Source of the DNA: Methanocorpusculum labreanum Z
GTDB lineage: Archaea > Halobacteriota > Methanomicrobia > Methanomicrobiales > Methanocorpusculaceae
Direction of reading: 5' to 3'
DNA: 64,000 nt
Assembly: GCF_000015765.1 (NCBI RefSeq)
Contig: NC_008942.1
Coordinates: forward strand, 248,001-312,000
The position numbers and the translations under genes were made by a program. The notes under the pieces are model-generated. The model was not told where the DNA came from. It did no database searches and saw only the letters and a program-made list of their open reading frames with translations. Positions 25,183-50,147 of the stretch are shown in pieces (the first letter of the stretch is position 1; each line of letters begins with the position of its first letter).

Positions 25183-25369
25183 TAGGAGTTACGCGGTGTT
25201 ATTCCCAATCCAATTCGGGAAGGAGTTTGTTGAGTGTGGAAACCTGAGAAAAACCAACCGCGAATCGGCGTGAATCTGAGCCCTTCGGGCTCTCAGAATC
25301 GGATTTGCTTATCCTCACTCACTCATCTCCCTTTCGAATTGAATCTATCCCAACACCGTGTAAATCCTA
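25183..25369. mobile_element. Hairpin element copy A (MITE-like, 187 bp)
   Basis: Ends are an 18-bp inverted repeat with two mismatches: TAGGAGTTACGCGGTGTT on the left and AACACCGTGTAAATCCTA on the right. Inner arms also match (CCAATTCGGGAAGG against CCCTTTCGAATTG). The core scaffold CCGCGAATCGG and AGAATCGGATTTGC flanks one perfect hairpin, GAGCCC-TTC-GGGCTC at 25278-25292. There is no open frame and no evident target duplication. It lies between tRNA-Thr and the HEPN gene and occupies most of the 397-base gap. Confidence 0.8.
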
Positions 25370-31584: not shown

Positions 31585-32769
31585 ATGCAGAACAGAACAT
31601 TCCGCCCAACACGGTGGACACTGGTATTTTTACTCCTCTCCTCAATGATGATATTAATGGGGGGAGCTGCTGTGGCTCCGGCTTTGCCGGAAATTAGTAG
31701 TGCCTTTCCCGAGGCCTCCGAGGCAACAATAGCCCTCATTATCTCACTTCCAGCTCTTGCGATCGCCTGTACCGGATTTATTATCGGCGCAGTTGTCGAC
31801 AGACTCGGGAGAATCCCCGTCCTTGCAATATCACTTGTCATATTCACGTTAGCCGGAGTTTCCGGATTCTTCCTGACGACGCTTCCGGCGATCCTTGTCG
31901 GACGTTTCATCTTAGGTATCGGTATCGCCGGTATAATCAGTTCGACGACATCCCTGATCACCGATTACTACAACGGCCCCTGCCGGGTACGTGTTCTCGG
32001 CTATCAGGCGGCTGCTATGGGAATCGGCGTCCTGATTCTGGATACGAGCGGGGGACTGCTTGCCGGAATCTCGTGGAGAATGTCATTTCTTATCTACGGA
32101 CTTGGTCTTTTCATTCTGATCGGTACCCTGATCACCATGAAGGAACCGGTCAAACAACAGACGGAGGTCAACCGGAATGCGCCGAAAACCAAAGTGCCGG
32201 TTACCTCGATCGCCCTGATCTATGGAACACTGTTTATCGGAATGATATTGTTCTTCCTGATGCCGACGAAATTCCCGTATCTTGTCTCTGAGATCTCCGG
32301 CGATTCGGCGATCCTGTCCGGCATTCTCCTTGGCGTGATGGGGTGTTTCTCGGCTCTCATTGGGGTCTTCTACTGGAGGATCGCCGGCAAAGTCCACCGG
32401 GTGATGACGCTTGCGCTCTCCTTTATCCTGCTTGGCCTTGGGTACTGTCTGTTTGGCATTTCCGTCTCTCTTGAGACGCTTATCACCGCGGTGATGATTG
32501 TTGGAATAGGAAACGGTCTGTTGATGCCGACGGTCCTTGGCTGGCTCGGCCTTATCACGCCGCCCGCTGTCATGGGAAAAGTGATGGGAGGATATGGGAT
32601 GTCTCTAAACCTTGGTCAGTTCGTCTCTTCCTTTGCCGCCGTACCGATCCTGCTTCTCGCGGCAAGTTACGGACACATGTTCCTGATATTCGGTCTCGTT
32701 TCGCTGTGTATTGGCGTCGTGTACGTTGTCGGATATCTGCACGTCAGACGTAATCCCGATGCAGCCTGA
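31585..32769 (+). CDS. MFS transporter, multidrug-like
   Basis: The 394-residue membrane protein has about 12 helices and the motif GAVVDRLGRIPVL after helix 2 (about residue 67). It also has GRFILGIGIAGIISSTTSLI in helix 4, a pattern resembling drug/H+ antiporters of the 12-TM group. A YNGPCRVRVLG loop follows. The substrate is not predictable. It lies downstream of the PadR/DUF2812 pair but has its own promoter. Confidence 0.82.
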   Translation: MQNRTFRPTRWTLVFLLLSSMMILMGGAAVAPALPEISSAFPEASEATIALIISLPALAIACTGFIIGAVVDRLGRIPVLAISLVIFTLAGVSGFFLTTLPAILVGRFILGIGIAGIISSTTSLITDYYNGPCRVRVLGYQAAAMGIGVLILDTSGGLLAGISWRMSFLIYGLGLFILIGTLITMKEPVKQQTEVNRNAPKTKVPVTSIALIYGTLFIGMILFFLMPTKFPYLVSEISGDSAILSGILLGVMGCFSALIGVFYWRIAGKVHRVMTLALSFILLGLGYCLFGISVSLETLITAVMIVGIGNGLLMPTVLGWLGLITPPAVMGKVMGGYGMSLNLGQFVSSFAAVPILLLAASYGHMFLIFGLVSLCIGVVYVVGYLHVRRNPDAA

Positions 32770-32793
32770 GGACACGGCTCCTCATTTTTTAGA

Positions 32794-33333
32794 TTAGAAC
32801 CTATTTTCGAAATATGTCTCTTTCGATAGGGAAAAACAGTCCTTATCCATCACCAGCCCGTCATACCGCCTCTCCGTCCGGGCAAGTGTGCCTTCATACC
32901 GGAACCCGAGTTTTTCGAGGACACGCCGGGAACGCCCGTTTTCGGGATAGCACGTAGCTGAAATCAGATCCAGATCCATCGTTTCGAACCCGAAAGCGAC
33001 AACGACTTTCGCCGCTTCGGTCATGAATCCTTTTCCCCAGAACTCTTCGCCGAGGGCATACCCGATCATCCTGACCGAATCATTCTCCCGCAGGGGATCA
33101 TCGATCAGACCGATGCTGCCGATCATCACGCCGGTCTCTTTCAGAACGATCCCGAAAACACTCTCCTGCCCAAGATAAATCGCCTGCATGATCGCCCGTG
33201 TCTCTTCCAGGGTCTCGTGCGGCTTCCACCCGGCATCCCGACCGGTGTTCGGCCCCCGTGAATAGGCAAAAATATCTTCAGCATCCGAATCAACGATCTG
33301 ACGAAGGATCAGTCTGTCTGTCTCAATCATCAT
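32794..33333 (-). CDS. GNAT acetyltransferase (RimJ/RimL type)
   Basis: The 179-residue protein starts MIETDRLILRQ, as RimJ/RimL-like N-acetyltransferases do. The acetyl-CoA site appears as GYALGEEFWGKGFMTEAAK near residue 95, followed by ATCYPENGRSRRVLEKLGF. It probably acetylates an N-terminus or small amine; the substrate is unknown. The ATG overlaps the upstream stop as ATGA, so it is cotranscribed with the patatin gene. Confidence 0.88.
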   Translation of the reverse strand: MMIETDRLILRQIVDSDAEDIFAYSRGPNTGRDAGWKPHETLEETRAIMQAIYLGQESVFGIVLKETGVMIGSIGLIDDPLRENDSVRMIGYALGEEFWGKGFMTEAAKVVVAFGFETMDLDLISATCYPENGRSRRVLEKLGFRYEGTLARTERRYDGLVMDKDCFSLSKETYFENRF

Positions 33334-38594: not shown

Positions 38595-39155
38595 TTAATC
38601 TTACGCGGGGTTAGTGTAAATCCAATTCAGGAAGGTTAAGGCTGGGTGTGAATGAATAAGAAAAAGAACCGCGAATCTCCGCGAATTAACGCGAATCGCA
38701 TTTTTTCTTGCGCCGTCGTGCTCTGCTCCGGCTGATGCGTGCAAATCGAAGATTTGCGTGCCGCCTCAAACAGGCTATGCCTGGTTGGGCTTCGCCTACG
38801 CAGAATCGCACGCCGTCTGGAAAAGTCCACGAGCTGAAAGCTCGTGAGACGTCTCAAGAGCCTTTGGCTCTTGGACAAATGCTATTGGAAAAACCGGCGT
38901 GCCGGTTTTTCTCTCCGTAAACTTCTCATTTGATGTAATCGAAAAAGAATGAAACAACAGAAAAACCCGCTGGCGGGTTTTTCCCCAGCATTTTTCAAGA
39001 GAGGGTGCGATTCTGCGTAGGCGATCAGCCGGAGCAGAGCACCCGAACGTAAGGAAAATGCGATTCGTGTTTATTCGCGGTATTTTAATCTCATGTTTCC
39101 ACACCCCGCCATACCTTTTCCGAATTGAATCCACCTCAACACTGCATACATTCTC
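38595..39155. mobile_element. Hairpin element copy B (561 bp)
   Basis: Degraded ends (TTAATCTTACGCGGGG, CACTGCATACATTCTC) correspond to those of the other copies. Inside, long inverted arms share CGAATCGCATTTT and TGCTCTGCTCCGGCTGAT (about 38668-38735 and 39016-39085). Between them lie six small perfect palindromes: GCAAATC-GAA-GATTTGC (38741), CAGGC-TAT-GCCTG (38771), CACGAGCT-GAA-AGCTCGTG (38828), CAAGAGCC-TTT-GGCTCTTG (38855), AAAAACCGGC-GT and inverse (38889), and AAAAACCCGC-TG and inverse (38961). It has no coding frame and fills the 666-base gap before sdpR. Confidence 0.78.
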
Positions 39156-49566: not shown

Positions 49567-49594
49567 ACCCGCAATATTTTTTTTTAATTTCCCG

Positions 49595-50107
49595 TAGGAC
49601 TTACGCGGTGGGCTTTCTCATGCTTCCATACCCAGCCATATACTTCCCGAATTGTATCTTCAAAATCATCACATATTTCCTGTCTGAATCCTTCACTCCA
49701 GATGAACTACCTGGAAAGCCCAAATGGGCAAAGCCCATTTGAGGCGGCACGCAAGCCGAAGGCTTGCACGCAACGTATAGGGGCCTCAGCAAATAGGATA
49801 TCCCACCGCGGGCCGCTCCGCGCCGGAGTCGCGGCCCCGCACCCCAGGTCAAGAAAAGGGACTGTTCATCTATTTTTCCAGAAAAAAGACATGCAAGATA
49901 AGAAAAACCCGCACGCGGGTTTTTCCTCAGCATTTTTCCAGAGAGGGTGCGATTCTGCGTAGGCGATCAGCCGAAGCAGAGCACCCGAACGCAAGAAAAA
50001 TGCGATTCGCGTTAATTCGCGGAGATTGGCGGTTAAATAACCTCAGGTTTTCAAACCCAGCCGTACCCTTCCCGAATTGGGGTCACAACCACACCGCGTA
50101 AGTCCTA
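49595..50107. mobile_element. Hairpin element copy D (MITE with perfect TIRs and TSD, 513 bp)
   Basis: The ends are a perfect 16-bp inverted repeat, TAGGACTTACGCGGTG (49595-49610) and CACCGCGTAAGTCCTA (50092-50107). They are flanked by the direct 6-bp duplication TTCCCG (49589-49594 and 50108-50113). The core shares the scaffold of copy B (GCGATTCGCGTTAATTCGCG, TGCGTAGGCGATCAGCC). It holds hairpins CAAATGGGC-AAA-GCCCATTTG (49721), GCAAGCC-GAA-GGCTTGC (49751) and AAAAACCCGC-AC with its inverse (about 49903). It has no gene and no transposase. Confidence 0.88.
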
Positions 50108-50147
50108 TTCCCGTAATGTTCTTCGTTAAAATCGGTCTCTGTTCACG

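Follow-up and report, generated by a model that had tools for sequence, protein, structure and literature searches.

A 513-bp MITE in Methanocorpusculum labreanum, its probable IS701-like source and a nested double-hairpin unit

Several described systems lie close to the locus reported here. ISAba11 makes a 5-bp target duplication (PMC7885321), Anabaena variabilis has REP dimers that inserted into palindromes (PMC3733652), and double-hairpin elements are known from fungal and sponge mitochondrial DNA (PMC2800124). M. labreanum Z, with a published genome size of 1,804,962 bp (PMC3035222), was listed with 0 transposable elements in a published comparison (PMC2686161), and we found no paper linking Methanocorpusculum with MITEs. 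Our analysis began from a window of 64,000 nucleotides, positions 248001-312000 of the complete, single-contig M. labreanum Z genome (1,804,962 bp), and concerns one element in it, designated D. We conclude that D is very probably a MITE moved by an ISMesi2-type IS701-like transposase, in a lineage that had received a 56-bp double-hairpin unit, which we call unit A. This would supply the missing driver of a family of repeats where no transposable elements had been listed, with tens of copies outlasting the IS that moved them.

Element D and its family

As the first-pass annotation of the window had described, D is 513 bases long and bounded by a perfect 16-bp inverted repeat, TAGGACTTACGCGGTG (16 of 16 positions identical), with TTCCCG on both sides (Table 1). 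By simple arithmetic, about 0.015 perfect 16-bp inverted pairs within 1 kb would be expected per 64-kb window. We likewise saw no gene inside D, as its two longest ORFs (110 and 86 aa) matched no Pfam family; an Rfam search over the D locus gave no match, and a promoter/terminator consensus scan of D found nothing above shuffles and called no terminator.

Table 1. Features of element D and its flanks (window positions)
Feature	Position	Strand	Basis or remark
Complete MITE D, 513 bp, non-coding	49595..50107		Internal modules common to tens of genomic copies
Left TIR TAGGACTTACGCGGTG	49595..49610	+	Sequence; identical end on IS relic L099
Right TIR	50092..50107	-	Sequence
6-bp target duplication TTCCCG, left copy	49589..49594		Sequence; family statistics
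6-bp target duplication TTCCCG, right copy	50108..50113		Sequence
Subterminal repeat ACCCAGCC..CTTCCCGAATTG	49630..49654	+	Direct pair with 50055-50079; self-match 82% over 38 bp
Second subterminal repeat	50055..50079	+	Self-match; direct pair with 49630-49654
Nested 56-bp double-hairpin unit A, AAGCCC...GCACGC	49716..49771	+	Site 1, between CTGGA and AACGTA; absent in sister copies
Perfect GC-rich hairpin GAAAAACCCGCACGCGGGTTTTTC	49902..49925		Visually terminator-like on either strand; no call in consensus scan
Empty site for double-hairpin unit B (CAGCATTT^TTCCAG)	49928..49941		Filled in other copies
Empty site 2 for unit A (GGCG^ATCAGCC)	49962..49972		Filled in other copies
Empty site 3 for unit A (reverse strand AACCGCCAAT^CTCC)	50021..50034	-	Occupied in other copies, there in the opposite orientation
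Flanking thioredoxin-fold gene, 111 aa	49231..49566	+	Used for empty-site test
Flanking small membrane-protein gene, 82 aa	50148..50396	-	Convergent to thioredoxin-fold gene

Searching the 513-bp D against its own genome returned 89 matching stretches. The TIR pattern with up to 3 mismatches occurred 57 times in the genome (versus 9 for a reversed-pattern control) and 4 times in the window (versus 0.21 expected), and there were more than 20 facing TIR pairs in M. labreanum, spaced 187-829 bp, with at least 20 elements bounded by D-type ends. Such ends were present in 11 of the 25 genus genomes, and among viral contigs the TIR 16-mer matched once, unpaired. Members of the family range from 141 to 829 bp and have mosaic interiors. 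A sister copy at genome positions 1335363-1335820 is 95% identical to D. Two further members lie in the window, one a 187-bp TIR pair (25183-25369) and the other a mosaic with inverted arms and unit A at site 2 (about 38600-39131). Elsewhere, a 210-bp element with poorer TIRs (G000 606702-606911, L037) is flanked by near-perfect 12-base direct repeats, tttttgtttgaa / tttttatttgaa.

Some family arms flank genes, and therefore some copies may have carried cargo. Closely similar PDDEXK_3 genes lie between inverted family arms, as if passengers, at G000 1220996-1221449 (L046) and 1637829-1638288 (L069); a YdjM-like membrane protein gene lies between inverted MITE arms at G000 31742-33094 (L061); and a 593-aa DUF4062 gene, which had no PADLOC match, lies within MITE arms whose two terminal TIRs are degenerate at G000 846345-849121 (2,777 bp; L064).

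We compared flanks for 49 distinct TIR pairs from several genomes, four of them IS copies or relics (950-1,103 bp). Exact 6-bp duplications were found at 11 of the 49 (shuffled mean 1.15, maximum 7 in 5,000 shuffles) and exact 5-bp duplications at 9 (shuffled mean 1.63, maximum 8 in 5,000 shuffles), with no excess over shuffles at lengths 4, 7, 8 or 9; about 29 pairs had no exact 5- or 6-bp duplication. The shuffles paired left and right flanks from different elements, and AT-rich targets were therefore allowed for.

A simple codon-bias gene caller was used to assign gene orientation. Of the 21 M. labreanum TIR elements assigned, 15 lay between convergent genes, compared to 9 among the window's 54 adjacent gene pairs (Fisher p 1.2e-5), a bias that may reflect either target choice (T-rich gene ends) or survival at the sites of least harm. 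The same bias could also arise if the copies were kept for host use, e.g., as bidirectional terminators between convergent genes, and had spread by recombination rather than transposition, and both the strong folding (z = -8.25) and the covarying hairpins would suit such a role. We nevertheless consider host use highly improbable: the duplications and exact TIR boundaries need transposition, insertions are least harmful in convergent gaps and T-rich targets may simply be preferred, and the consensus scan found no terminator in D.

Its TIRs, duplication, lack of a gene, copies and insertion polymorphism together bear out the first-pass reading of D as a complete MITE-like element. That reading missed the composite nature of D, i.e., the nested 56-bp double hairpin; as a MITE, D is an ordinary, well-formed family member, and the double-hairpin unit is its unusual part.

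The probable source transposase and the orthologous site

The first-pass annotation had also noted that no transposase is encoded in the window, and this absence extends to the whole M. labreanum genome, which had no match to PF01609 (DDE_Tnp_1), to NF049921 or to the relic protein described next. When IS with TAGGA-type ends were looked for in the genome and its relatives, an IS701-like, ISMesi2 type was found, present in the genus as relics only. One relic, L099 (1,103 bp, in the congener G004), has TIRs with 0 and 1 mismatch (16/16 and 15/16), a TTTTA duplication, and a broken DDE transposase gene that matches DDE_5, DDE_Tnp_1 and NF049921 transpos_IS701_2 (1e-62). It scored 212 bits against the NF049921 cut-off of 250, while intact relatives scored 395, 383 and 359 bits. 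IS traces within the genus were seen in G004, in G008 and in G010, where one end carries the 16-bp TIR exactly. None of the 25 Methanocorpusculum genomes gave a match above the NF049921 cut-off; drafts among them may hide an intact IS at contig ends, though the M. labreanum sequence is complete. PF04693 (ISC1217) was above its cut-off in L119 and L122 and below it in L126 and the relic, with NF049921 far stronger in all; ISC1217 has TAGG ends and a 6-8-bp duplication.

The 12-bp core of these ends, TAGGACTTACGC, is common to intact IS of the relic's transposase group in other archaea and bacteria, and ends of this type occurred in Methanoregula, Methanothrix, Methanoperedens, uncultured archaea and the sister genus, mostly as pairs about 0.95-1.14 kb apart. 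ISMesi2 of Allomeiothermus silvanus, annotated as IS701-like, has the ends TAGGAGTTACGCAGTT/TAGGACTTACGCAGTT and a 7-bp duplication, and copies on a Methanosarcina barkeri plasmid and in Gloeocapsa have ends close to those of ISMesi2 and 5-bp duplications, so that the ends of all three read [TC]AGGA[CG]TTACGCAG with duplications of 5-7 bp. IS of the ISMesi2 type thus combine TAGGA[CG]TTACGC ends, 5-7-bp duplications and a DDE transposase of about 320 aa.

Canonical IS701, which duplicates 4 bp, was considered as the source and rejected, as duplications are 5-6 bp in the MITEs and 5-7 bp in IS of the group; duplications of 5-7 bp rather than 4 therefore place the source in the ISMesi2-type branch. 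Judged from its sequence, the IS type behind the D family is supported as IS701-like, ISMesi2 type. Outside the TIR, MITE and IS resembled each other marginally at most (16/24 versus a shuffled maximum of 14); this was not used as proof and is among the weakest points of the case.

We then turned to relatives of M. labreanum, in which the thioredoxin-fold gene left of D was present in 23 of 25 genus genomes. Two genomes (G009 and G020) had matching neighbour genes with a short AT-rich gap between them and no element; the closest genome (G023) carried at the D site another repeat, different from D and about 600 bp long, and in G005 there was another TIR element and the membrane-protein gene was missing. 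Since the site is empty in the first two and otherwise filled in the other two, D is no ancestral feature of the region, and elements have landed in the gap repeatedly. The comparison that the first-pass annotation had proposed could thus be carried through for the region, which is not ancestral in all relatives, but not for the flanking 6-mer, as divergence of the short AT-rich gaps of G009 and G020 left no single TTCCCG to be read there; the exact duplication rests on D's own flanks and the family statistics. Across species the D gap holds different repeats (L134 in G005, L132 in G023), making it an apparent hot spot.

The excess of 5-6-bp duplications over shuffled pairings, the empty orthologous site and an IS type with matching ends agree with the footprint of DDE transposition read at first pass. 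We infer that D was mobilised in trans and that the IS was afterwards lost from M. labreanum. An IS701-like (ISMesi2-type) DDE transposase would have bound the TAGGACTTACGCGGTG ends and cut out or copied D, which would then have inserted into the gap of a convergent gene pair; a staggered cut at the target would have given rise to the 6-bp TTCCCG duplication. The transposase would have acted in trans from an IS that survives in the genus as relics only, and the MITE lineage would have received the 56-bp unit A before or between moves, at what are now three MITE sites in the genus. These moves would lie in the past, the genus having yielded no intact transposase.

Some other resident transposase, not IS701-like, might instead have accepted D-type ends and moved the MITEs, which would account for copies that are polymorphic between species even though none of the 25 genomes has an intact IS701-like transposase. 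We think this very unlikely, given that the 16-bp end is matched by an IS relic within the genus, that the 12-bp core belongs to intact IS of the relic's transposase group elsewhere, and that M. labreanum was listed with 0 transposable elements (PMC2686161).

Nested double-hairpin units

Removing about 55 bp from D yields the sister copy at 1335363-1335820, and the missing piece is the 56-bp unit A, AAGCCC[AAATGGGC AAA GCCCATTT]GAGGCGGCAC[GCAAGCC GAA GGCTTGC]ACGC. We identified 61 flanked copies of unit A in the genus, at three places in MITE sequence. Counted as distinct sequence contexts in the fetched loci, and so not as an unbiased sample, site 1 (CTGGA^AACGTA) was filled in 7 and empty in 6, and site 2 (GGCG^ATCAGCC) filled in 15 and empty in 54; site 3, where the orientation is opposite to that in D, was filled in 16 and empty in 64 as ACCGCGAAT^CTCC, and filled in 12 and empty in 3 as ACCGCGAAT^AATCGCG. 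Taking out the 56 bp restored the empty sequence each time, with no target duplication. Chimeric junctions joined the left of site 3 to the right of site 1 or 2, and the left of site 1 to the right of site 2, and show sequence exchange inside unit A, which shuffles the left part of one MITE copy with the right part of another.

Across 24 distinct copies of unit A, 97.8% of cells were paired in the two-hairpin structure; 41 cells were double-changed, compared to 12.3 when shuffled (0/500), far above slid versions. A second unit, unit B, GTCC[AAGAGCC AAA GGCTCTT]GAGACGTCTC[ACGAGCT TTC AGCTCGT]GGAC, fills CAGCATTT^TTCCAG in other copies. The unit B skeleton with different stems was also seen near the site-2 equivalent of a MITE of another interior type (L112, G004:C4:62500-64200).

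Unit A was absent from 207 other genomes of the order, and none of 33 matches to a 16-base unit-A string in viral contigs had the paired two-hairpin skeleton. Y1 transposase (PF01797) was found in 0 of 25 Methanocorpusculum genomes, with control matches in 5 of 14, and the ends of unit A (AAGCCC and GCACGC) do not carry the REP end tag GTAG or CGTC.

Unit A appears to have spread separately from the MITE, and we infer both its mobility and the mechanism of that mobility. Our tentative proposal is of an archaeal mobile 56-bp double hairpin with precise, duplication-free insertion at sites without shared sequence, in genomes without Y1 transposases, by a structure-directed or other route, and acting as an exchange point that joins MITE halves. 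As unit A was seen only within MITE-related sequence, its mobility could amount to a handful of ancient events, multiplied as the MITEs were copied.

Alternatively, unit A may not be mobile at all: it may be ancestral to the MITE and have been lost by precise, hairpin-promoted deletion, with quasi-palindrome correction producing the covariation. All flanked units do lie in MITE-related contexts, truncated units that lost a half-hairpin exist (L117, L169), and template-switch repair can perfect hairpins without selection. We regard such deletion as a serious competitor, though less likely than not, as deletion alone cannot place the 56 bp between three unrelated pairs of neighbouring sequences and in either orientation, and empty contexts outnumber filled ones at site 2 (54 versus 15) and site 3b (64 versus 16), the empties looking identical in many copies. 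It concerns the nested unit only and is compatible with the MITE reading of D. If unit A is indeed mobile, it is a mobile element inside a mobile element. With three sites, filled and empty forms, both orientations and covarying stems, unit A offers a clean comparative set that bears on how tiny double-hairpin repeats spread without an obvious enzyme, a long-standing question for REP-like and mitochondrial hairpin repeats.

Comparison with known systems

ISMesi2-type IS share with the D family the end core TAGGA[CG]TTACGC, with an IS length of about 1.07-1.14 kb and IS duplications of 5-7 bp, whereas D has no transposase, end positions 13-16 read GGTG in D versus AGTT, and the MITE family favours 6-bp as well as 5-bp duplications. 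ISAba11, with its 5-bp duplication (PMC7885321), is by its description a likely relative. MITEAba12 (PMC6382973) is, like the D family, short and non-coding, with IS-matched TIRs, a duplication and IS identity confined to the TIR; however, it is uniform at ~113 bp and has a coresident IS, while the D family is mosaic, spans 141-829 bp, and its IS is absent from the genome.

Unit A resembles REP/BIME repeats (PMC3733652) in its two adjacent stem-loops, variable covarying stems, intergenic position and nesting in other repeats; it differs in lacking the GTAG/CGTC end tag and any Y1/RAYT transposase in the 25 genomes, and in having a fixed 56-bp skeleton at three MITE sites only. With the mitochondrial double-hairpin elements (PMC2800124) unit A shares two hairpins, presence or absence between close relatives and complementary stem substitutions; the two covarying hairpins are seen directly, and the three sites suggest mobility. 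Unit A, likened to these elements by description, differs in residing in an archaeal chromosome, nested in MITEs.
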